Assembly (NCBI RefSeq): GCF_030646925.1
Contig: NZ_JAUSKL010000083.1
Location: forward strand, 1-64,000
Reading direction: 5' to 3'
Source: Candidatus Binatus sp.
Lineage (GTDB): Bacteria; Desulfobacterota; Binatia; Binatales; Binataceae
DNA length: 64,000 nt
The translations under genes and the position numbers were made by a program. The notes under the pieces are model-generated. The model was not told the origin of the DNA. It ran no database searches and saw only the letters and a list, made by a program, of their open reading frames with translations. Below are positions 2,214 through 62,679 of the stretch, one piece after another (position 1 is the first letter of the stretch; each line of letters opens with the position of its first letter).

Positions 2214-3164
2214 ATGAAAGCAATCAACACGGTCACGGGAACCATCAATCCGGAGCAACTCGGAACCACGCTGATGCACGAGCATCTGCTGATCGGATGG
2301 GCCGGATGGGAACTCGATTGCCAGGCGCCGAAGTTCGAACGCAAGGCCGCGCTCAAGAATTGCGTCGAGCGGCTGAAGGAATTGCGCGACCTCGGGCTGA
2401 CTTCATTCGTCGATCCGTGCCCGATGGATATCGGCCGCGACGTCACTTTCATGGCGGAAGTGGCGTCGGCCTCTGGCATCAACATCATCTGCTCGACCGG
2501 CCTCTACAAGGAGGACCTCGGCAACACCGCATATTTCAAGCAGCGCACCGTTGACGATATCGCGGCGGTCTATGTCAGCGAGATCAACAAGGGCATCGCC
2601 GATACTGGAATCAAGGCGGGAATCATCAAGTGCGCGACCGGCAAGGGCATGATCACCACTTATGAAGAGAATTGCCTCCGCGCGGCCGCGCGGGCGCAGA
2701 AGATCACCGGCGTGCCAATCACGACGCATACCGAAGAAGGCACGATGGGCCGCGAGCAGCTCGACATTTTCGCGTCGGAAGGAGTGGACCTGAAACACGT
2801 GATCATTGGGCATAGCTGCGGATCGTCAGACTTGAGCTATCACGTGGCGATGCTTGATCGCGGCTGCGTCCTCGGCTTCGATCGCTTCGGCCTGGATTTC
2901 GCGCATCCCGACAAATTGCGCCTCGCGTCGCTGATCGGCTTGCTCGGCGTGGGCTACCAGAATCAGCTCGTGCTATCGCACGACACGGTCGCATGCTGGC
3001 TGGGACGCGGACTCGAGCTGCCGCCCGAAACCGCAAAGCTGATTAAGAATTGGACGCCGACGCACGTGTTCAAGAACATTGTGCCTGCGCTCAAGGAGGC
3101 CGGCGTCGGTGAAGCAAAAATCCGCGCGATGCTGGTCGAGAATCCGCGGCAGTATTTCAATTAG
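2214..3164 (+). CDS. phosphotriesterase-family metal-dependent hydrolase
   Basis: Amidohydrolase-superfamily TIM barrel of the phosphotriesterase (PTE/PHP) family, 316 residues against the usual 300-350. Visible metal ligands are the HEH pair (His22, His24), the expected carboxylated lysine in GIIKCATG (Lys139), His172 in TTHTEEG, His200 in IIGHS, and the Asp of LSHDT near residue 257, so the binuclear site looks intact. Family members act as organophosphate hydrolases, lactonases (quorum-sensing or aromatic lactones) or have unknown substrates; the sequence alone does not choose. GAGGAG at 2201-2206, seven bases before the ATG, supports the start. The gene stands alone between lspA and a convergent HTH gene. 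Confidence 0.88.
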   Translation: MKAINTVTGTINPEQLGTTLMHEHLLIGWAGWELDCQAPKFERKAALKNCVERLKELRDLGLTSFVDPCPMDIGRDVTFMAEVASASGINIICSTGLYKEDLGNTAYFKQRTVDDIAAVYVSEINKGIADTGIKAGIIKCATGKGMITTYEENCLRAAARAQKITGVPITTHTEEGTMGREQLDIFASEGVDLKHVIIGHSCGSSDLSYHVAMLDRGCVLGFDRFGLDFAHPDKLRLASLIGLLGVGYQNQLVLSHDTVACWLGRGLELPPETAKLIKNWTPTHVFKNIVPALKEAGVGEAKIRAMLVENPRQYFN

Positions 3165-3211
3165 CGCGAACTGCGCGCGGGCAAATCGCTAACGAATCGA
3201 TCGCGGCGCAT

Positions 3212-3454
3212 CTACTTCGATGCGCCGTGATGCTCCGGCCTGTGATTCTTCGCCGGCTCGGATATCCCGGACTCGACATGCTCGCGCCATTTGTCGATCG
3301 CCTCGACGGTAAAGCGCCAGTCGCTGCCGACCCTGAAAGCCGGCAACTGATGCCTTCTCAGCATCCGGTAGATCGTCGATGGATGCACTCTCAGGTAGCT
3401 CGAAACTTCCTGAACCGTCAGAACCTTGCTCTTCATCTGGTCGAAACGTTCCAT
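3212..3454 (-). CDS. excisionase/HTH_17-type DNA-binding protein
   Basis: An 80-residue protein that is nearly all one MerR-like winged helix of the excisionase type. The pattern TVQEVSSYLRVHPSTIYRML, then RHQLPAFRVGSDWRF and a final helix AIDKWREH, is the classic HTH_17 signature. The C-terminal tail is short, His/Pro-rich and charged. It lies 136 bases downstream of aroB on the same strand, after the aroC-aroK-aroB group. No integrase or phage gene is nearby, so a chromosomal regulator or an orphan excisionase-like protein is more likely than a recombination directionality factor. Target unknown. Confidence 0.85.
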   Translation of the reverse strand: MERFDQMKSKVLTVQEVSSYLRVHPSTIYRMLRRHQLPAFRVGSDWRFTVEAIDKWREHVESGISEPAKNHRPEHHGASK

Positions 3455-3590
3455 GAGAAAACCTCGCTCTTGGCGTTTCTCCCCTCGAAATTCCCTCCCT
3501 GTGTGGTTGGCCCGGGACCGGACGGCCCCGCACGACTAACTACTCTTCAAGCAAATCACACGCGTCGTATCCAGACAACGATCGTCCATT

Positions 3591-4667
3591 TCAGCCAAGC
3601 GGGCTCAGCATTTCGTCGATCGTAAGCCGCCGCGTGAGTGAATGCCCGAGCCGATCGAGCAGCACGAATTCGACCGCGCCCTCGACGCGTTTTTTGTCGA
3701 GTTTGAGCGCGCGCATGAAGTCGTCGGTCTGCCATCCGGCCGGCAATTCGGTCGGCAATCCGGCGCGCGCGATCAATCGCTCCAATCGCGAAGCCTCGTC
3801 GGCGGAGAAGCCGGCGTAACGCGATGATAGCCGCGCCGCCGCGACCATCCCGATCGCGACCGCCTCGCCGTGCAAGTATTTTCCGTAACCCGCACTTGCC
3901 TCGATCGCGTGGCCGATCGTGTGTCCGAAATTCAGCGTCTTGCGCAGCCCGCCCTCGTGTTCATCGGCGGAAACCACCGCGGCCTTGTGCGCGAGCGATC
4001 GCGCCACCATGTCTTCGAGTACGTTCGCGTCGCGCGCGAGAATCGAATCGAGCGTCCGCTCGAGATCGGCGATCATCGGCGCATCCATGATCGCGCCATA
4101 CTTGATTACTTCGGCCAGACCTTCGAGCAATTCGCGCTCCGGCAGGGTCGCGAGCGTCGCCACGTCGGCGACAATCAGGCGCGGTTGGTAAAACGCGCCG
4201 ATCAGATTCTTCGCGTGCCGATGATTGATGCCGGTCTTGCCGCCGAGCGACGAATCGACCTGTGCGACAACCGTTGTCGGCACCTGCACCAGCGGCACGC
4301 CGCGCAAAAATGTGGCCGCGGCAAATCCGCCGAGATCGCCGGCGACACCGCCGCCGAGCGCGAATATCGCTGCATTGCGATCGAGGTTCGCCGCCGTCAT
4401 GCGATCGTAGAGCGTCTCGAGCGTCGCCGCGGATTTGCTCGCCTCGCCCGCCGGAAATGAAATCGTAGTCGGCGCAAAACCGCTCTTTCGGAGCGCGTCC
4501 GCGGCGCGCGCAGCGTAGAGGTTCTCGACGTTGGAATCGGTGATGATCGCGCACGGCCCCGCGCTCAGCCCCGCGTCCAGCGCCAGTTCGCCAAGGCGAT
4601 CCAGAAGTCCTGCGCCGACGTGCGCGGAGTGCGACGATGCGCCGAGCGCGATTTCAATCGTGCGCAT
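3591..4667 (-). CDS. aroB: 3-dehydroquinate synthase
   Basis: Second step of the shikimate pathway: converts DAHP to 3-dehydroquinate using NAD and a divalent metal. The 358-residue length is typical. Recognised blocks are PAGEASKS, the NAD-binding GGGVAGDLGGF, PTTVVAQVDSSLGGKTG with the catalytic lysine, GLAEVIKYG with a metal-binding Glu, and the metal-binding histidine loop GHTIGHAIE. It is the third gene of a minus-strand aroC-aroK-aroB group, 19 bases after aroK, so the three are probably one transcript. Confidence 0.97.
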   Translation of the reverse strand: MRTIEIALGASSHSAHVGAGLLDRLGELALDAGLSAGPCAIITDSNVENLYAARAADALRKSGFAPTTISFPAGEASKSAATLETLYDRMTAANLDRNAAIFALGGGVAGDLGGFAAATFLRGVPLVQVPTTVVAQVDSSLGGKTGINHRHAKNLIGAFYQPRLIVADVATLATLPERELLEGLAEVIKYGAIMDAPMIADLERTLDSILARDANVLEDMVARSLAHKAAVVSADEHEGGLRKTLNFGHTIGHAIEASAGYGKYLHGEAVAIGMVAAARLSSRYAGFSADEASRLERLIARAGLPTELPAGWQTDDFMRALKLDKKRVEGAVEFVLLDRLGHSLTRRLTIDEMLSPLG

Positions 4668-4686
4668 CGCTATGCCCGCGTCCCGC

Positions 4687-5262
4687 TCATCTGGACACCA
4701 TGCCTCTTCGTGCCGCGCACGCCGAAAACTCCGCGAGCACCAGGTCCGCCGCCTGCTCGACGCTCAGTTCGGAACTGTCAATTTGCAGATCTGCGCGCGC
4801 GTACGCCTCGCGCCGTTCTTCCATCAATTCCTTGATTCGCTCGAGCGTCGATTTTCCGCGCTCCATCAACTTCGGCCGCACCGTTTTCGATCGAGCCACG
4901 CGAGCCGCGATGACCTCTGGCCGCGCCGTCAGGCAAATCACCACGCCGGCTCGCTTCAACGCTTCGCAATTCGCGCGATCCATCAGCGCGCCGCCGCCAG
5001 TCGAGATTACTTCGGGCCGAATGCCGTGGCAGTGAGGGCATCGCCGATGGATGTCGGCGAGCCGAGCTATCGCTTCGCGTTCGAGTGCTCGAAATTTTGC
5101 TTCGCCGTCATCGGAAAAAATTTGCGCGATCGGTTTGCCAGCGCGCGCGATTATTTCCGCGTCGCTATCGAGGAAATGCCAGCCGAGCCGACTTGCTACC
5201 AGCGGACCAACCGTGCTTTTTCCGCTCGCCATAAATCCGGTGAGGATGAGTTTCGGCGTCAT
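4687..5262 (-). CDS. aroK: shikimate kinase
   Basis: Phosphorylates shikimate at O3 with ATP. The P-loop GFMASGKST is at residues 9-17, DSDAEI follows with the shikimate-binding Asp, and STGGGALM is the second substrate loop; the lid region carries RSKTVRPKL. At 191 residues it is slightly longer than the usual 170-175. Part of the extra length is a short CPHCHG segment just before the STGGG loop, which I do not recognise from typical AroK proteins. It lies between aroC (51 bases upstream) and aroB (19 bases downstream). Confidence 0.95.
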   Translation of the reverse strand: MTPKLILTGFMASGKSTVGPLVASRLGWHFLDSDAEIIARAGKPIAQIFSDDGEAKFRALEREAIARLADIHRRCPHCHGIRPEVISTGGGALMDRANCEALKRAGVVICLTARPEVIAARVARSKTVRPKLMERGKSTLERIKELMEERREAYARADLQIDSSELSVEQAADLVLAEFSACAARRGMVSR

Positions 5263-5313
5263 CTGAGATCGCGTCGCGAGGCCGCGGCGATTCTTCCGCT
5301 TGAAATTTGCCGC

Positions 5314-6480
5314 TTAGTAATTGCGGACTTGCTCCTGGAAACCCTTCAGATTGCGAGCGATCTCGGTCAACGAATCACCGCCAAATTTATCCAGAAACGC
5401 CGCCGCGATCTCGAATGCAACGACCGCCTCCGCGATCACTGCGGCCGCCGGAATTGCGCACACGTCGGATCGCTCGATCGCGCCGACCGCTTCCGCCTTG
5501 GTCTTGATATCGACCGAACGCAGCGGCCGCATCAGCGTCGAAAGCGGCTTGAACGCAACTCTCACCCGGAGCGGCTCACCGGTACTCATCCCGCCTTCGG
5601 TGCCGCCCGAGTTGTTCGAATGACGCGTGAAGCGCCGCGCCTCGGCGTCGTAGCCGATTTCGTCATGCAGCGCGGAACCGCGAATTCTTCCCGCGGTAAA
5701 ACCGAGGCCCAGCTCGACGCCCTTGGCCGCCTGCAAACTTAGCAGCGCGTGCGCGAGCCGTCCGTCGAGTTTGCGATCCCAATGCACGTGACTGCCGAGG
5801 CCGACCGGCAAGCCGCTCACGATCACCTCGACGATTCCGCCGAGCGTGTCGCCGGCTTTTTTGCATTCATCGATCTCGGCGATGATGTTTTTCTCCGCCT
5901 CCGCGTCAGCCACGCGCACCTGCGATTCCTCCGTGATGCGCCGCAATTCGTCGATACCGAGATTGGTGGGCGTGTCCGCATCGGTTGCGCCGATCGTCGC
6001 GACATAACCGAGCACGTCGATTCCGAATGGCGAGAGAATCTGCCGCACGAGGCCGCCGATTGCCACGCGCGCCGTGGTTTCCCGCGCCGACGCCCGTTCG
6101 AGCACGTCGCGGATATCGTCGAGGTTGTATTTCAGCACGCCCGCGAGATCGGCGTGGCCGGGACGCGCGCGCGTCACCGGCGTCGCCTCGCCGCGATCAG
6201 CCGGATCGATCGACATCCGCTTGACCCAGTTTTTGAAATCGCGATTCTCGATTATCAGCGTGATCGGACTGCCGAGCGACTTGCCGAAGCGGATTCCCGA
6301 CACCGGGCGCGCTTCGTCCTTTTCAATCAGCATCCTGCCGCCGCGGCCATAGCCTTTCTGGCGGCGCGCGAGGTCGCGGTTGATCGTCGCGAGATTGATC
6401 GCGAAGCCGGCGGGTACTCCCTCGACTATCGTGACCAGTTCGGGGCCGTGCGATTCTCCAGCGGTGAGGAAACGAAGCAT
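5314..6480 (-). CDS. aroC: chorismate synthase
   Basis: Last shikimate-pathway step: eliminates phosphate from EPSP to give chorismate, using reduced FMN. The N-terminal signature GESHGPELVTIVEGVPAG and RRQKGYGRGGRM are clear, as are VTRARPGHADL, RASARETTARVA, and HSNNSGGTEGGMSTGEPL. Length (388) is typical of the longer bacterial type. It is the first gene of the aroC-aroK-aroB group. priA starts divergently 178 bases upstream, so the promoter probably lies in 6481-6658. Confidence 0.97.
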   Translation of the reverse strand: MLRFLTAGESHGPELVTIVEGVPAGFAINLATINRDLARRQKGYGRGGRMLIEKDEARPVSGIRFGKSLGSPITLIIENRDFKNWVKRMSIDPADRGEATPVTRARPGHADLAGVLKYNLDDIRDVLERASARETTARVAIGGLVRQILSPFGIDVLGYVATIGATDADTPTNLGIDELRRITEESQVRVADAEAEKNIIAEIDECKKAGDTLGGIVEVIVSGLPVGLGSHVHWDRKLDGRLAHALLSLQAAKGVELGLGFTAGRIRGSALHDEIGYDAEARRFTRHSNNSGGTEGGMSTGEPLRVRVAFKPLSTLMRPLRSVDIKTKAEAVGAIERSDVCAIPAAAVIAEAVVAFEIAAAFLDKFGGDSLTEIARNLKGFQEQVRNY

Positions 6481-6658
6481 CTATTATCCTGGCCCGCGAC
6501 TCGCTCGAGCCGGGGCAATTCGATTCAACCAGACTCGCGGCGCGCGTGAAAGCGGGGGCCTTTTCGCGATTCGATTTGGCAGCAGGTGGTGGCGCGCGCT
6601 CCGGCGGCCGCGCATTATTGCATTCGCCGATCCGGCGCGTGGCGCGCGGCAACTTGCG

Positions 6659-9160
6659 ATGCAGGCAAACATTGTAATCGTCGGCACGGCGCGGGGATTC
6701 GATCAACTCACCTATGCGATTCCGCGCGAACTCGACGGCCGCATCCAGCCGGGCCATCTGGTGCTCGTGCCGCTGCGATCGCGCCGCCTGACCGGCATCG
6801 TCACCGGGCTCGGCGAGGAACTTTCGCGCGAGCCGCTGAAGCCGATCATCGAATTGCTCGAACCGCGCCCGCTCTTCGATCGCGCTCATCTCGAGCTGAT
6901 GGAATTTCTTTCGTCGTACTACATGGTCTCGCTCGCCGAGGCCTATCGCAGCGTGATTCCCGCGCTCGCGAGGGTCGAATCACGCACCGCGTATCGCCTC
7001 GGCGCCGAACCGGATCCACTCGCTCGCGCAACCTTCACAATCGTCGAGCGTGCGATCGTCGAGGCCGTGTCCAAACGTCCGATGACGCCGCGCCAACTCG
7101 AAAAATTCGGCACCCGCAACGAAGTCCGCGCAGCGCTTGCTCGATTCATCGGCGACGGAACGCTTCAGCGCCGCGATAGCATGCAGGGGCGGCATCGCGA
7201 CGCGTCCGACACGATTGCTCGCATCGCGCACGACGCGGATGTCACCGGCGTTCGCGGCCTCAGACAGCGCGCGGTGCTCGACGCGATCCAAAAGAATGGA
7301 GAATCGGGAAGGCGCGTCGAAGAGCTGAAACTCGAAATCGACGGCGCCGGCGCGATTCTGAAAAGCCTCGCGCGCCGCGGCCTGATCGAAATCGAGGCCG
7401 CACCTCCTGATGCGCACCAACTCGCCGCAACACCGGGATTCGATCTCACCGACGAGCAGCGAATCGCGCTCGACGCGATCATGCCGGCAATCGAAAAGCG
7501 CCGCTACGAGGCCTTTCTGCTCTGGGGCGTGACCGCGAGCGGCAAGACCGAAATTTATCTCAACCTCGCCGCACGCGCTCTCCTGGAAGGCCGCAGCGTT
7601 TTGTTCATGGTCCCTGAAATTGCGCTCGCCGACGAAATCGTTCGATCGTTTCGCGCGCGCTTCGGCTCGCTGGTCGGTATCGCACATAGCGCGCAGAACG
7701 TCTCCGAGCGATGGGCCAGTTGGATGGCGGCGCTCGGCGGCGAGGCACGAATCATGATCGGTCCGCGCTCGGTGATTTTCGCGCCAATTCACGACCTCGG
7801 CCTGATCGTCGTCGATGAAGAGCACGACGCGTCGTACAAAAATGAGGAAGGCATCCGCTATCACGCGCGCGATCTCGCCGTCGCCCTCGCGGGATTTTCG
7901 AAATGTCCAGTCGTGCTCGGTTCAGCGACGCCGTCGAGCGAATCGTTCGCCAACTCCCGGCGCGGACGATACCGCTTGCTTAGATTGTCGCGCCGCGTGA
8001 ACGAGCGCGCACTGGCGCAGGTCGAAATTATCGATATGCGCCGCGAGATTGCCGAGGCTCGCAAAATCTCCGACGCGCAAATCGCCGCGGGCGCGCCTAA
8101 ATCGATCAATGGCGCAGTTGCAGGTGGCTCTGTCGGAAAGAAGGAATCCGCATCGGAGACATTACCACTTTCATCCGCATTGATCGCCGCGCTGCGCGAG
8201 AACCTCGCGTCGGGCGGCCAGAGTATCGTCTTTCTGAATCGGCGCGGGTTCCACAATTTTCTGCAATGCCACATCTGCGGCAACGTGATTGCCTGCGCGA
8301 ATTGCAGCGTCAGCATGACGTTTCATATGCGCGACCGCTCGCTCCGATGCCACTATTGCGGCAGTCACACAGCAGCGCCGGATACTTGTCCCGAATGCCG
8401 CGGCTACGGACTGAAGGGCCAGGGCTTCGGCACCGAACGCCTCGCCGAGACGCTCGCGCAGTTGATTCCCGATGCTCGTATCGAGCGGATGGATTCCGAC
8501 ACCAGCGGACTCAAGGGAGCGCGGGCGCGGATGCTGGCCGAGTTGCGCGCGCGCGAAATCGATATCCTCGTCGGCACTCAGATGATCACCAAGGGTTTCG
8601 ATTTTCCCGGCGTCACGCTGGCCGCGGTGGTGCTCGCCGACATGGCGCTCAACATGCCGGATTTCCGATCTGCGGAGCGCACGTTTCAGTTGCTCACGCA
8701 GGTCGCCGGCCGCGCCGGCCGCGGTGAGCGCGCCGGCCGCGTGATTATCCAGACCTACGCGCCCAACCACTACAGCATCCGCGCGGCGAAGGACCAGGAC
8801 TACGCGCGCTTCATCAAGCGCGAGTTGCAGTTGCGGCGCGATCTGATGTATCCGCCGTTTGCGAGACTCGCGATGGTGCGAATTGAAGGCGTCGATTCAG
8901 ACCGCGTGCGCAAGCTCGCCGAGGCAGTCGCGAAATCGCTCGCGCGAGCGGCGACGCCCGACGGCATGCGCGTCCTCGGCCCGGCGCCCGCTCCGATCGA
9001 ACGAATCAAGCAGCGCTACCGATGGCAAGTGATGATAAAATCGCGCGAACTGAAGCCGATGCGCGAGGCGCTCGCGTCGATGCGCGCGGAACTTGGCGAT
9101 GCGGCTGAACGCGGCGAAATTTATCTCGCGATCGATATCGATCCAGTCAGAATGCTTTGA
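6659..9160 (+). CDS. priA: primosomal protein N' (replication restart helicase)
   Basis: 3'-5' superfamily 2 DNA helicase that recognises stalled forks and loads the primosome. I use the ATG at 6659 (833 residues) because the conserved N-terminal DNA-binding domain starts there (IVIVGTARGFDQLTYAIP); upstream in-frame codons would run into aroC on the other strand. Walker A GVTASGKTEIY is near residue 290, DEEH near 385, and the eight-cysteine zinc module (CHICG, CANC, CHYCG, CPEC) near 537-580. Helicase motifs V and VI (GTQMITKGFDFPGV, QVAGRAGRGERAGRV) are intact. An unusual low-complexity insert (about 40 residues, Ala/Ser/Gly-rich, near 475-515) precedes the zinc module. Confidence 0.96.
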   Translation: MQANIVIVGTARGFDQLTYAIPRELDGRIQPGHLVLVPLRSRRLTGIVTGLGEELSREPLKPIIELLEPRPLFDRAHLELMEFLSSYYMVSLAEAYRSVIPALARVESRTAYRLGAEPDPLARATFTIVERAIVEAVSKRPMTPRQLEKFGTRNEVRAALARFIGDGTLQRRDSMQGRHRDASDTIARIAHDADVTGVRGLRQRAVLDAIQKNGESGRRVEELKLEIDGAGAILKSLARRGLIEIEAAPPDAHQLAATPGFDLTDEQRIALDAIMPAIEKRRYEAFLLWGVTASGKTEIYLNLAARALLEGRSVLFMVPEIALADEIVRSFRARFGSLVGIAHSAQNVSERWASWMAALGGEARIMIGPRSVIFAPIHDLGLIVVDEEHDASYKNEEGIRYHARDLAVALAGFSKCPVVLGSATPSSESFANSRRGRYRLLRLSRRVNERALAQVEIIDMRREIAEARKISDAQIAAGAPKSINGAVAGGSVGKKESASETLPLSSALIAALRENLASGGQSIVFLNRRGFHNFLQCHICGNVIACANCSVSMTFHMRDRSLRCHYCGSHTAAPDTCPECRGYGLKGQGFGTERLAETLAQLIPDARIERMDSDTSGLKGARARMLAELRAREIDILVGTQMITKGFDFPGVTLAAVVLADMALNMPDFRSAERTFQLLTQVAGRAGRGERAGRVIIQTYAPNHYSIRAAKDQDYARFIKRELQLRRDLMYPPFARLAMVRIEGVDSDRVRKLAEAVAKSLARAATPDGMRVLGPAPAPIERIKQRYRWQVMIKSRELKPMREALASMRAELGDAAERGEIYLAIDIDPVRML

Positions 9161-9198
9161 CTCAAAAAAATCAGGATGCTTTGAATCAAAAAAACCAG
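9152..9198. repeat. imperfect 24-bp tandem duplication over the priA stop codon
   Basis: Two copies of ATGCTTTGA(C/A)TCAAAAAAA(T/C)CAG lie head to tail, at 9152-9174 and 9176-9198. They differ at two positions. The first copy contains the priA stop (TGA 9158-9160); the second ends immediately before the ATG of the following hydrolase gene. It looks like a local slippage duplication that lengthened the intergenic spacer. Confidence 0.75.
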
Positions 9199-10152
9199 AT
9201 GAGCGAACAACATCCACATCATCCGATTAATTCCGCAATTCATCACGTGCCGCAGTCGCGCCATACGTTCGAAGCGAGGATGAAGGACGGCGCGATCATC
9301 CGCATTCGCCAGCACGGGAATCCCGCGGGTCCGCGACTGTTCCTGAGTCACGGCAACGGACTCGCGATCGACGGCTACTTTCCGTTCTGGGGGCCGCTGC
9401 GCGATAAGTACGAAGTGATCGCTTTCGACTTCCGCAATCACGGGCACAATCCGCTGCATACTGCCGAAGGGCACACCTGGCCCAATTTTATCGACGATCT
9501 CGACGCGGTCTTCGATGCGGTCAATCGCGAGCTTGGGGTAAAGCGCGCCGCCGGCCTGTTCCATTCGATGTCGGGCGTCGCGGCTGCGATGCACGCGTTC
9601 AAGTTCGGCCGTCGCTTCGACGCGTTGGTGCTCTACGATCCGCCGATTTATCCGCGCGAGGGGCATCCGGTTCGGTACCTGCAGCAGAACGACAAGGATT
9701 CGCTGTCGTCGCGCGCCGCGCGCCGGCCCGAGCGCTACAAAGATCCGCTCGATCTCGCAAAACAATTTGCGCGGCGCTTCAAGCGCTGGGTTCCGGGCGC
9801 GGACGAACTGATGGCGCGAGCGACGCTGCGCCACGATCGCGCGAGCGGCGACTGGATTCTTGCCTGTCCGCGCGAGTTCGAGGCGCAGATATTCGCGTTC
9901 AATGCCGATCCCGGATTGTGGCAGAAGATCGCTCGATGCCCGGTGCCGCTCAAGCTGGTCTGCGGCGATCCCGCGCTCGAAGACGTGATGCCGCCCGCGT
10001 TGATCGGCAAAGCGATCGCCGAAGAATCGGGCCTGCCGTACGAAGCGATCCCTGACACGACGCATTTTCTGCAAATCGAGCGGCCAGCCGAAAGTTTTCG
10101 CGCCGCCGAAACTTTTCTGGCCGAACACGGCCTCGCCGCCGACGGCGCCTGA
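9199..10152 (+). CDS. alpha/beta-fold hydrolase
   Basis: A 317-residue alpha/beta hydrolase. The oxyanion block LSHGNGLAIDGY, the nucleophile elbow LFHSMSG (Ser in HSM; Gly before His replaced by Phe), an acid region around VCGDPALED and the catalytic His in DTTHFLQIERP form a complete triad in order. The substrate is not predictable. I chose the ATG at 9199 rather than an in-frame TTG at 9157, because the latter overlaps the priA stop within a tandem duplication and would only add a repeat-encoded QKNQ-rich leader. No clear Shine-Dalgarno is visible. It is probably cotranscribed with priA. Confidence 0.85.
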   Translation: MSEQHPHHPINSAIHHVPQSRHTFEARMKDGAIIRIRQHGNPAGPRLFLSHGNGLAIDGYFPFWGPLRDKYEVIAFDFRNHGHNPLHTAEGHTWPNFIDDLDAVFDAVNRELGVKRAAGLFHSMSGVAAAMHAFKFGRRFDALVLYDPPIYPREGHPVRYLQQNDKDSLSSRAARRPERYKDPLDLAKQFARRFKRWVPGADELMARATLRHDRASGDWILACPREFEAQIFAFNADPGLWQKIARCPVPLKLVCGDPALEDVMPPALIGKAIAEESGLPYEAIPDTTHFLQIERPAESFRAAETFLAEHGLAADGA

Positions 10153-58043: not shown

Positions 58044-58946
58044 ATGGCGCGGCAGCGGAAAAGCTGGAACATCTACGGCCGAATTCTGGATTGGCTGAGC
58101 AACTACGCGATCGATCTGCTCACCAAGCCGCTCAAGTCGTACGCGCTGCACGTTCCCAACGACATGGCGGCGCTCAAGCGCTACGTGCGCAAAGGCGACG
58201 TGATACTGGTCGAGGGCAACGAGCGCATCAGCGAATGCATCAAGTACCTGACGCAGAGTTCGTGGTCGCATTCGGCGCTCTACGTCGGGGACGAGCCGAT
58301 TCGGCGCAATCCCGCACTGAAAAGCCAACTGGTCGAGCAGTTTGGCGACGAGGCGAAATTCTTGGTGGTCGAGGCGCTGGTCGAATCGGGCGTGGTGCTG
58401 TCGCCGGTATCCAAGTATCGCGATTTCAACATGCGGATTTGCCGGCCGTACAGCCTGTCGTCCGCCGATCTTGCCGAAGTTCTGGACGAGGTGCTGCGCA
58501 GCGTGGGCGATACTTATGATTTGCGCAACGTGATCGATCTCGCGCGATTCTTTTTGCCGGTGAGCCTGGTGCCGCGGCGATTCCGCCGCCGCGCGCTCAG
58601 TTTCGGCAGCGGCGAGCCGACGCGTGTGATATGCTCGAGCCTGATCGCGTCGGTATTTCACCGGGTGAGGTTTCCGATCATTCCGAGCTATGCTCAATTG
58701 CCGAGTGAGAGCTTGCCTTCGACCGGAGTGCGGCGCCTCTGGTCGATGAGCGGCAAGCAACCAGAACCGTCTTACGGTATTATGCGCGTGGTATCGCCGA
58801 CGCTGATCACGCCGCGGGACTTTGATTTGTCGCCCTATTTCGAGATCATCAAGTTCAATATTATCGAGAACATGCGATTCGACTATCACAAAATCTTGTG
58901 GGCTGATGACGAAGCGCCGACCGAGCCCATCAAGAAGGGCGCCTGA
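58044..58946 (+). CDS. YiiX/YebB-like permuted papain-like hydrolase
   Basis: A 300-residue protein of the YiiX/NlpC-P60-like permuted cysteine hydrolases. The catalytic His lies in YLTQSSWSHSALYVGD and the Cys in TRVICSSLIASVF, in the permuted order His then Cys; GDVILVEGNERISECI precedes. Two flanking basic stretches (RRFRRRALSFG) may touch membranes or phosphate. Members are thought to cleave lipids or amide bonds, but substrates are mostly unknown. ATG 58044 begins MARQRKSWNIYGRILDWLSN. Next is an unknown 93-residue protein; then the flippase fusion converges. Confidence 0.8.
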   Translation: MARQRKSWNIYGRILDWLSNYAIDLLTKPLKSYALHVPNDMAALKRYVRKGDVILVEGNERISECIKYLTQSSWSHSALYVGDEPIRRNPALKSQLVEQFGDEAKFLVVEALVESGVVLSPVSKYRDFNMRICRPYSLSSADLAEVLDEVLRSVGDTYDLRNVIDLARFFLPVSLVPRRFRRRALSFGSGEPTRVICSSLIASVFHRVRFPIIPSYAQLPSESLPSTGVRRLWSMSGKQPEPSYGIMRVVSPTLITPRDFDLSPYFEIIKFNIIENMRFDYHKILWADDEAPTEPIKKGA

Positions 58947-58971: not shown

Positions 58972-59253
58972 TTGAACGAGGAACAAGAGCACGCATCCGG
59001 CCGGCGCGATCTTCTGGAAAAGACCATCGCGAAAATTCTGCATCGCCATTGCAACTTCGGTTGGGCGAACTACTACATCCCGAGCGAGAAGTTCCCGAGC
59101 CTGATCGAAGAACTGGTCGAGGTGATGAGCCCCGGCGGCCAGGCCGGTCACGAGGAATTGGTGCAGTTCCTGCTCGGCACTCAGCGCACATCGTCGATCC
59201 AGGAGCGGGTCGCGAAGATGGAGAAGGAGTTTGCGATCTACAAGCGCAGTTGA
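58972..59253 (+). CDS. unknown 93-residue protein
   Basis: A small charged protein starting with TTG at 58972, preceded by AGGAGAGG at 58960-58967. It contains a helix DLLEKTIAKILHRHCNFGWA, a GWANYYIPSEKFPSLIEELV motif and a C-terminal helical end RTSSIQERVAKMEKEFAIY. No signal peptide or membrane segment. I do not recognise a family. It is 25 bases after the YiiX-like gene and may be part of the same transcript. Confidence 0.65.
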   Translation: MNEEQEHASGRRDLLEKTIAKILHRHCNFGWANYYIPSEKFPSLIEELVEVMSPGGQAGHEELVQFLLGTQRTSSIQERVAKMEKEFAIYKRS

Positions 59254-59268
59254 GCGCCGCCGAATCGT

Positions 59269-62025
59269 TTAGTGCAGTTCCGCTTTGAGGGCCGTCAGCT
59301 CGCCTGATTCCGCGGCGGCTTCTTCGACCAGATTTCCCGGAAAACGATCGTTGAGCGGGCTCAGTTTCGAGCCCCATTCGACCAGCGAATGCGCCATCCG
59401 CGCAATTCCACCGAACGGCGCGGGCACCAGCTCGGCGGCGTCGCGGAACTCGGCAAGACTCGCACGATCCCATCCGAGCAAGCCGCTCAGCAGCATGTAA
59501 ACCGGCAGCGAACCGATCAGGCTCACGAGCACGACGAGCCATGCGCTCGCGACGTGGCCGGGCCCGCGCCATACGGCGAGCGCGAATGCCCGCATGATCG
59601 CGTAGTTGCCGATCGCGGCGAGCGCCGGATTGAAGATGGTCTGCCACCAACTGATCGCGGGCCACGCGACCAGGTAGCCCATCAGCGGCCATGCGACGAG
59701 TCCGCGCATCACCGATGAAATCAGAAAGGCGTAAAATACGCCTTCGAATCCGTACCACTTGAGCATGTACCACGTCAGCACCACGCGGCTTGTGTGTTCG
59801 AGCAGCGAAGTCCAGGTGAAGGTGCCCGTGCGTCCGACGCCCTGAAAAACCTGGTCGGGCAGGCGCGTCGTGAAATCGGCGAGACGCCACAGATGCATCA
59901 GCCACATCACCGTTGCGGCGCGGACGAATTGCGGCGGCAGCAGGCCCTTGATGAAAACGTCGGAGAATGCGATGAACGCGCCGCCCAGCATCGAGCACAC
60001 CATGATCGCCCAGCGCAGTCCCTGGTCGAGGTAGCGGCGGGTGAGCGCCAGCTTGGCCTGCGAATAGGCCTCGGAGATCGAAGGCATCAGGGTGGTGAAG
60101 ATGTAAGCGCCGGTTTCGAGATAGGCGAACGAGAAAACGAACGTGAGCAGAAAAATTTCGTTGAGCTCGAGAAAATTCGGCAGCAGGATCGCCATCAGGA
60201 CTGGCACCAGGCCCCAACTGATCGCCACGGCAGCCTGGCCGCCGGTGAGTTTCGCGCCGTACACGATCGATTTTTTGATCGTCTCGCGATCGAAGTGAGC
60301 GAGAAAAATCGTGACCAGGTTGAAGCCCATCTTTTCGTAGAAGATCGAACAAAAGAGTCCCATGAAGAGATTCGCGATCACGCCGCCGATCGCGAAACCG
60401 AACACCACGCCCATCCCTTCGCCGAACACCGGATGCATCAAACCCCAGTGGCGCATGTAGATGCCGCAGATCATCTGGATGACGGGATTCAGTACATAGG
60501 TCAGGACGATCAGCAGTTGCGCGTAATCGAAGCGTTGCAGCGCGCGGAACAGGCTGAAGAAAATCGAGATGAAGCCGGGGAACTGGATCAGCGTGTGCAG
60601 GATCACGAACCACGCGAGATAGGCCATCGCGGTATGCGGCATCCATACTGCGGCGACGAGTCCGAGCGCGGCAATTTGGAACATCCCGGCGAGCGCGTGA
60701 AACCAGATGAAGAACTGCGCAAAGGTGATCGCGCGGCCCGGATCGGTGAGGCGATACTCGGCGAAATATTTCACCATCGCCTGGCTGGTGCCGAGATCGA
60801 GCAGCGTGAAAAAAATCAGCATGAACTGCACGACTGCGGCCCACGCGCCGCGCGCCTCGAGAAACGGATTGACGAAGGTGCGCTCGATATAAAAGGTCAC
60901 CGCGAAATTCAGCGGTATCATGATGAACAGCGAGAGCAGGTAGTTGTAGAAGAAGCCGCTCAGCGGGCGATGGAAGCCGACGATTTCCCAGCGCGGATCG
61001 CCGCGATCGGCCGGCGTTTCGGAATCGATCTTGACGGGCGCAGCCGCGGCGCCGAGCGATGCGGGCCGCGGTACCGGTTGCACTGACGGCCGGTAGAAGC
61101 GATCGAGCAACTCGGGATGCCGCATGCTGTAGCGCCGCACGATCAGGAACGCGGTGAGAAAAACTGCGAACATCGTGAGAAAAATCCACGCGAGAATTCG
61201 CGCCTGCGGACGGTCGGGCACCGGCGCTGCGATCCATTCACCGTAGGCAATCGGCGCGACGCCGGCGGCAGTGCGCGTCATGCCATACAGCAGCCAGTTG
61301 AAATAAGGCCAGCGCTGGAAGTCGTAATTCTCGGCGCCTTCGATACCTTTGAGCATCGCGATCATGCTCGCGATTCGGAGGCTCTGATCGCCCTGGCGCA
61401 GCCACACGTTGAGCACGTAGATCGTGCCGGCGCCGGATTTGACACGGAGCAGTATCGGCGTTCCGGGTTTGACCGGACCGTACCCGTTGGTGCGCACCAG
61501 AACTTCCGCGCCGTTGATGTCGAGCAGTGAGCGCTCGTGAACGCGGACGGCGGAAAGCCAACTCACATTCGTGCGCAGCGGATCGGCGGGCGGGCCGATA
61601 TAGTTGATGACGGCGGCGAGCCGCTCGAGTTCGCGATCATGCGTCGGGCCGTGTGCGACGTCGACGATTCCGGCCTGCTTCACGATGCCGTCGGTGAGCG
61701 ATTCGAGCGCGGCAGGTTCGGTGTGGCGGCCGAGAATCAGCAACACGCCCATGCCACTTTTGACGCGCGCCTTGAGTGCGTCGAGTTCCGGACCGACGGC
61801 GGGCAGGTTATCCTGAACGACGGCCGTTGCGGCGGCGCCGAGAGTCGTGACGCGATGAGTCGCCGGATCGAGTTGCAGGCGCGTCAGCACCAGATCCTCG
61901 GCGCCGGAATAATAGATGTTGAAAGCGGGTTCGGCGGCCGAAACGAGAGCGGGAGCGAAGAGCAGAAGAAAGAGAATCGCGGCGACGGTCCGGGCGATCG
62001 GTTTGGCGCGCAACGCAGAATGCAT
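59269..62025 (-). CDS. periplasmic-domain/MOP-flippase fusion membrane protein
   Basis: A 918-residue membrane protein. Residues 1-30 are a signal-like helix; 31 to about 270 form a soluble alpha/beta domain (NIYYSGAEDLVLTRLQLDPA, GVLLILGRHTEPAALESLTD, AVINYIGPPADPL, IYVLNVWLRQG) that I read as a class I glutamine-amidotransferase/ThuA-like Rossmann domain, without a clear Cys nucleophile. A transmembrane helix follows near 280-300. Residues 345-870 contain about twelve to fourteen helices resembling MATE/polysaccharide flippases (MOP superfamily; LLDLGTSQAMVKYFAEYR, FGFAIGGVIANLFMGLF, SFAYLETGAYIFTTLMP). The export substrate is unknown. It converges on the 93-residue gene. Confidence 0.75.
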   Translation of the reverse strand: MHSALRAKPIARTVAAILFLLLFAPALVSAAEPAFNIYYSGAEDLVLTRLQLDPATHRVTTLGAAATAVVQDNLPAVGPELDALKARVKSGMGVLLILGRHTEPAALESLTDGIVKQAGIVDVAHGPTHDRELERLAAVINYIGPPADPLRTNVSWLSAVRVHERSLLDINGAEVLVRTNGYGPVKPGTPILLRVKSGAGTIYVLNVWLRQGDQSLRIASMIAMLKGIEGAENYDFQRWPYFNWLLYGMTRTAAGVAPIAYGEWIAAPVPDRPQARILAWIFLTMFAVFLTAFLIVRRYSMRHPELLDRFYRPSVQPVPRPASLGAAAAPVKIDSETPADRGDPRWEIVGFHRPLSGFFYNYLLSLFIMIPLNFAVTFYIERTFVNPFLEARGAWAAVVQFMLIFFTLLDLGTSQAMVKYFAEYRLTDPGRAITFAQFFIWFHALAGMFQIAALGLVAAVWMPHTAMAYLAWFVILHTLIQFPGFISIFFSLFRALQRFDYAQLLIVLTYVLNPVIQMICGIYMRHWGLMHPVFGEGMGVVFGFAIGGVIANLFMGLFCSIFYEKMGFNLVTIFLAHFDRETIKKSIVYGAKLTGGQAAVAISWGLVPVLMAILLPNFLELNEIFLLTFVFSFAYLETGAYIFTTLMPSISEAYSQAKLALTRRYLDQGLRWAIMVCSMLGGAFIAFSDVFIKGLLPPQFVRAATVMWLMHLWRLADFTTRLPDQVFQGVGRTGTFTWTSLLEHTSRVVLTWYMLKWYGFEGVFYAFLISSVMRGLVAWPLMGYLVAWPAISWWQTIFNPALAAIGNYAIMRAFALAVWRGPGHVASAWLVVLVSLIGSLPVYMLLSGLLGWDRASLAEFRDAAELVPAPFGGIARMAHSLVEWGSKLSPLNDRFPGNLVEEAAAESGELTALKAELH

Positions 62026-62163: not shown

Positions 62164-62679
62164 ATGGATGCCATCGAAGCGATTCTCTCGCGCCGCGTGC
62201 AGCGCACATTCGCGGCGACGCCGGTCGAAGCGGAAAAACTGTCGAAGATTGTCGAAGCGGGCCGCCACGCGATGAGCGCGCGCAATCTGCAGCCGTGGCA
62301 ATTTATCGTGATCCGGAATCGCGAGCGCTTGAAAGAAATCGGCGCGCTGTGCACCACGGGGCGATTCGTCGCAGACTCTCCCACGGCGATCGTCGTACTG
62401 AAGGATGACGGCAACGCGCGATGGGCCGCGGTCGATTGCGCGCAGGCGGTGCAGAACATGGCGAACGCGGGCTGGGCGCTTGGACTCGGCACGTGCTGGG
62501 TCGGAAATTTCGATGCGGCGAAAGTCGGCGAACTGCTCGGCGTCCCCGTAGGTTGGTCGATCTTCACGATTCTGCCGTTCGGATACCGGGACGCGGCGAA
62601 ACCACCTGAGGGCAAGGCGCTCAAGTCGCGCCGCGAGATGCTCCACTACGAGACGTACGGCAATCCGAAACCGAATTGA
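62164..62679 (+). CDS. nitroreductase-family flavoprotein
   Basis: An FMN-dependent nitroreductase-fold protein of 171 residues, shorter than the usual 190-220. It begins MDAIEAILSRRVQRTFAATP, with HAMSARNLQPWQFIVIRNRE for FMN binding, and VQNMANAGWALGLGTCWVGNF. The reductant and substrate are unknown. GGAGG at 62149-62153 sits ten bases before the ATG. An alternative start at 62146 is unlikely. Confidence 0.87.
   Translation: MDAIEAILSRRVQRTFAATPVEAEKLSKIVEAGRHAMSARNLQPWQFIVIRNRERLKEIGALCTTGRFVADSPTAIVVLKDDGNARWAAVDCAQAVQNMANAGWALGLGTCWVGNFDAAKVGELLGVPVGWSIFTILPFGYRDAAKPPEGKALKSRREMLHYETYGNPKPN

Follow-up and report, generated by a model that had tools for sequence, protein, structure and literature searches.

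A conserved fusion of a periplasmic domain with a MOP-type flippase region in the Binataceae

The fused gene and its chromosomal surroundings

The window analysed here is a stretch of 64,000 nucleotides from the genome of a Binatota soil bacterium. Near one end, it carries on the reverse strand a single ORF of 918 aa, starting with ATG and free of internal stops, in which a signal-like segment, a soluble domain, a membrane helix, a basic linker and a long series of membrane helices follow one another (Table 1).

Table 1. Features of the fused gene and of its neighbours in the window
Feature	Coordinates	Strand	Basis
YiiX/C92-like gene, core neighbour, no link to the fusion	58044..58946	+	PF05708, 35.6 bits
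93-aa protein, found beside the YiiX-like gene across the family	58972..59253	+	searches of relatives
Fused gene, 918 aa, one ORF	59269..62025	-	ORF and homologs
Two more helices, then the conserved tail of the C-terminus (GWD..E, SPL..RF), residues 787-918	59272..59667	-	hydropathy, alignment
MOP (PST/Wzx-like) core, residues 354-786	59668..60966	-	profile comparisons
PST-like motif QAMVKYFAEYRLTDPGRA, residues 415-432	60730..60783	-	comparison with PST proteins
Basic linker, residues 303-353, VRRYSxRHPE segment to GFHR	60967..61119	-	charge count
Membrane helix, residues 274-302	61120..61206	-	hydropathy 2.63; low-confidence model
Periplasmic alpha/beta domain, residues 32-262 (~230 aa), tentatively a degenerate GATase1-like domain, no Cys	61240..61932	-	weak profile match
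Signal-peptide-like segment, residues 1-31	61933..62025	-	sequence, hydropathy peak 1.82
Nitroreductase-like gene, other flank; name from sequence only	62165..62679	+	close to the 93-aa gene in genomes lacking the fusion

The order of segments proposed in the earlier note, a signal-like helix followed by a soluble alpha/beta domain, a membrane helix and MOP-type helices, is borne out by the ORF and by hydropathy averaged over eight homologs: a signal-like peak lies at residue 22, no strong peak follows before residue 287, and a run of membrane helices extends from about residue 355 to about 850, ahead of the conserved tail. The signal-like segment has a basic n-region, an h-region at residues 14-28 and a possible cleavage site near VSAA/E, while the limits given for the helix at residues 274-302 come from a low-confidence AlphaFold model. 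From the helix at residue 287 to that at 371, the linker region has 10 K/R against 7 D/E, and the linker would be cytosolic by the positive-inside rule. MOP transporters have a cytosolic N-terminus, and a basic cytosolic linker placed ahead of the MOP unit agrees with this. The C-terminal region is of the 14-helix MOP type; hydropathy and charge agree with 12 to 14 membrane helices and a cytosolic start of the MOP unit, the structure model being of low confidence. Structure prediction, which the earlier note had also proposed, gave unusable models both for the full protein (pLDDT 32.7) and for the N-terminal domain alone (pLDDT 36.6), each from an alignment of four close sequences.

The YiiX-like gene and the 93-residue ORF are indeed the immediate neighbours, as had been noticed from the window, and both run towards the fused gene, in convergent orientation. 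Among 58 relatives' genomes the YiiX-like gene was found in 49 and the 93-aa gene in 38, and both occur in most Binataceae that do not have the fusion; they form an uncharacterised core pair of this family. Although it is conserved in Binataceae, where it lies mostly beside the YiiX-like gene, the 93-aa protein itself matches nothing in Pfam above cut-off. Since the pair is so widespread in the relatives, the adjacency of the fused gene to the YiiX-like gene reflects a fixed chromosomal place. The fused gene is placed between the 93-aa and nitroreductase-like genes in 7 of the 8 Binataceae genomes that carry it (both flanks seen in G000, G003, G016, G029 and G020, one in G034, and G025 inferred from contig ends), and the YiiX-like pair is also found without it. 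A meaningful link to YiiX is not supported, the fused gene being an optional insert beside a core pair. A functional unit with the YiiX-like hydrolase was considered as well and was rejected, because the pair is core without the fusion and is convergent with it, and because G028 has its fused gene elsewhere in the genome.

In six genomes without the fused gene (G001, G004, G006, G015, G017 and G019) the 93-aa and nitroreductase-like genes lie close together. At the fused-gene site, which may be a variable spot, G005 (contig C8, ~2766-9958) has unrelated ORFs over about 7 kb; by eye these are PIN-like and PQQ-repeat-like. In G028 (contig C23, 7079-8179) a transposase-like ORF, IS110-type by eye, adjoins the nitroreductase-like gene. 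No polysaccharide or glycan gene cluster was seen around the fused gene at the Binataceae loci examined.

Conservation and descent of the fusion

When 148 genomes of the class were searched by profile, the fused gene was found in eight Binataceae genomes, the window's own included, and in no other family; these correspond to 8 of the 58 relatives' genomes and to 8 of the 36 Binataceae among them. A second collection gave homologs in PNBD01000050.1, JASHPB010000155.1 and JASHQJ010000204.1, of which the last two are titled Candidatus Binataceae. Homologs from Binataceae are 52-88% identical to the window protein and are full-length, single, uninterrupted ORFs, except for the G034 copy, which is ended by a contig edge. 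Viral contigs and plasmids yielded no relatives.

Among 395 genomes drawn evenly from the phylum, one outside the class, G482, has a homolog. It is 867 aa long and 29% identical to the window protein, and its signal peptide, N-terminal domain, helix, linker and MOP part follow one another in the same order. A profile search found no fused gene in the other 41 genomes of that class, the one extra match there being a 439-aa ORF (E 0.002). In G482 (contig C27, 5038-11931) the fused gene lies between glycosidase genes of the GH1 (572 bits) and GH38N (121 bits) families, all in one direction and apparently in an operon, and a PTS mannose-type IID gene lies beside this group.

An assembly error or a chance read-through that merged two genes would make the architecture an artefact. 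We attach practically no probability to this explanation, because the ORFs are uninterrupted in Binataceae and the same one-ORF layout recurs in seven other Binataceae genomes and in the homolog of another class; homologs of matching architecture likewise led us to reject a chimeric assembly. The pairing of a MOP-type region with a periplasmic domain is thus real and conserved, and the protein is a rare one.

Between G000 and G003, dS is 0.57 and dN 0.126 for residues 31-268 of the N-terminal domain (dN/dS ~0.22), and 0.46 and 0.031 for residues 345-790 of the MOP part (dN/dS ~0.07); these ratios indicate that both parts are under purifying selection. In the syntenic copies, the identity of the fused protein to that of the window falls roughly in step with that of the YiiX-like protein: 88% and 91% in G003 (the latter from a 55-aa fragment), 72% and 70% in G025, 75% and 70% in G034, 70% and 67% in G016, 67% and 65% in G029, and 54% and 57% in G020. 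Vertical descent combined with repeated losses would produce such a pattern. The non-syntenic copy of G028 has 52% for the fused protein versus 71% for the YiiX-like one. It is worth recording that G034 has a second, degraded copy (contig C514, 10484-11817), a pseudogene by appearance: its N- and C-terminal fragments lie in separate frames, a stop is present, and the middle (~residues 170-650) is missing; this assembly has ~560 contigs and 8% contamination.

Relationships of the two parts

Searches of Pfam, NCBIfam and the PDB returned no significant match, and none above cut-off, for the window protein or its homologs, and the PDB gave nothing significant for the whole protein, the MOP part or the N-terminal domain taken separately. 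As no current family model recognises the fused protein, its annotation is probably hypothetical. No member reaches the curated cut-off of PF01943 (28.2 bits), the best being the G016 homolog, which scores 22 bits (per-genome E 1.2e-4) over approximately residues 376-619 in family numbering. A Wzx HMM of our own scored the members no better than their shuffled versions, and single-sequence comparison was therefore replaced by profile-profile comparison.

By three indirect tests, one of them the PF01943 match of the G016 homolog given above, the C-terminal part is homologous to PF01943 flippases. Searching 395 genomes with the profile of the eight proteins gave, apart from orthologs, six matches with E < 0.05, to ORFs of 433-520 aa; all six exceed the curated cut-off of PF01943 and score best with PF01943 or PF13440, with MatE weak if present at all. 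With hhalign, the MOP part matched 27 Wzx proteins of Binatia at E 0.012 using eight sequences, and at E 1.2e-4 over 365 columns once the distant homolog was added; this alignment covers the transporter core with both six-helix repeats, and controls gave 0.38 (reversed columns), 0.3 (NuoM) and 0.4 (NuoN). The comparison with the six remote ORFs reached E 1.2e-18 over 374 columns, a value inflated because the same profile had picked them, albeit on short segments; 1.2e-4 is the unselected figure. Moreover, the motif KYxAE[YF]RxxDPxxA is common to the fused family and PST proteins (for example 'AAKYIAEYRSSDPARA' at locus L138 and 'ATKYVAEFRTADPPKA' at L141). The MATE/Wzx-like flippase proposed from the window is therefore supported as a PST/Wzx-like homolog, with membership judged from these profiles to hold at the level of the superfamily, as a divergent branch beyond the reach of the Pfam model. 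The window's own genome encodes three other PF01943 proteins above cut-off, so the fused protein is an additional MOP protein; PelG (PF16933) gave no meaningful match in that genome.

Perhaps the MOP part exports small molecules, as in MATE-like drug or metabolite efflux, and not a lipid-linked saccharide. The surroundings of the Binataceae loci examined, with no glycan gene cluster, would fit such a role, and MatE too belongs to this superfamily, as a remote branch; nonetheless, the preference of the six remote matches for PF01943 or PF13440 makes it improbable, in our view with only a small chance of being right.

The pattern of the N-terminal domain recalls the GATase1_like domain (PF07090) that accompanies a vWA domain in common membrane proteins of Binatia. 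The full domain aligns with it over 58 columns only (E 0.0038), a score matched by 3 of 150 column shuffles. Its first half scores 25.1 (E 4.7e-4), which is reached by none of 150 column shuffles (p<0.01) and is also above the cross-half comparisons, while the second half is indistinguishable from shuffles. The "GATase-like" label is thus weakly supported, the first half matching above its controls and the second not, and a GATase-like fold is a lead rather than a result. The domain may instead be an unrelated alpha/beta fold that resembles GATase1_like by chance, as the short alignment, the shuffles that equalled the full score and the non-significant second half would suggest; the score of the first half, higher than in every shuffle and in the cross-half comparisons, speaks against it. 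We regard this as a serious possibility, if somewhat less than an even one, and it is compatible with the explanation that we prefer.

An active class I glutamine amidotransferase has a cysteine in its nucleophile elbow. The N-terminal domain is free of cysteine in all 8 family members of the alignment and, by eye, in the G482 homolog, so that Cys-dependent amidotransferase catalysis is unlikely and the processing suggested from the window is not supported as the work of a GATase active site.

Possible role and known systems

Our preferred reading, to which we give a probability of roughly 60%, is that the fused protein represents a new subfamily of MOP-superfamily (PST/Wzx-like) flippases with a non-catalytic periplasmic accessory domain. 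It would be an inner-membrane protein whose N-terminal alpha/beta domain, exported by Sec to the periplasm, is joined to the transporter by one membrane helix and the basic cytosolic linker. The MOP core, judging from its homology, would flip a lipid-linked saccharide, and the N-terminal domain would act without catalysis, either as a dock between the flippase and a partner in the periplasm or as a binding surface for the head group that is exported. A bolder version is that a periplasmic pseudo-amidotransferase domain, fixed to the transporter, reads the glycolipid once it is flipped or passes it on, uniting export with periplasmic checking or delivery in one polypeptide, which is speculative and, to us, rather doubtful.

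The N-terminal domain could also be a Cys-independent enzyme, for instance a hydrolase or transferase that trims the glycolipid after flipping, which would couple flipping to processing. Nine sequences agree fully in sixteen of its columns (W156, R165, N233, Q237, N243 and Y247 of the window protein among them), and the GH1 and GH38 genes flanking the distant homolog, the only contextual hint to function, would suit such an activity. Nonetheless, this domain evolves faster than the MOP part, as the dN values above indicate, and has neither a recognised catalytic motif nor an enzyme family match, and we consider an enzyme unlikely. Similarly, the MOP part might be a non-transporting scaffold that positions the periplasmic domain within some machinery of the envelope, given that a stand-alone gene present in 8 of 36 Binataceae genomes is dispensable for the family; such a role is hard to reconcile with a core that is the most constrained part of the protein and has many invariant charged residues (K419, E423, R425, R498, D500, H577, D579, E620 and E652), and we deem it a poor candidate.

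MOP flippases are usually single units that rely on separate partners. A conserved fusion with a periplasmic domain would reveal what type of outer-leaflet partner such a transporter requires, and would offer a direct handle on the coupling of flipping to the next step. A full-text search of incomplete coverage returned no description of this fusion architecture.

With the PST/Wzx flippases (PF01943 Polysacc_synt, TC 2.A.66.2) the fused protein shares ~370 collinear columns, the KYxAE[YF]RxxDP motif and a similar number of helices; unlike them, it stays below every curated cut-off, adds a signal peptide, a periplasmic domain, a helix and a linker in front, and in Binataceae is not encoded in a polysaccharide cluster. 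The PF07090 domains found beside vWA in Binatia membrane proteins align with the first half of the N-terminal domain, whereas the second half does not score against them, and the fused protein differs further in having no vWA insert, no cysteine, and a flippase as partner. The mycobacterial MurJ (MviN), a MOP flippase with extra non-transport regions of which one is thought to be regulatory, is a precedent for added regulatory regions, although its additions, a linker and a pseudokinase, are intracellular and follow the 14th helix, while those described here are N-terminal and periplasmic (PMC6180346). TacF of Streptococcus pneumoniae, a gatekeeper MOP flippase that monitors its own substrate, is likewise a precedent for a substrate-monitoring flippase; in its abstract, recognition is by the flippase itself and no added domain is named, whereas the fused protein of Binataceae has one (PMC13385700).
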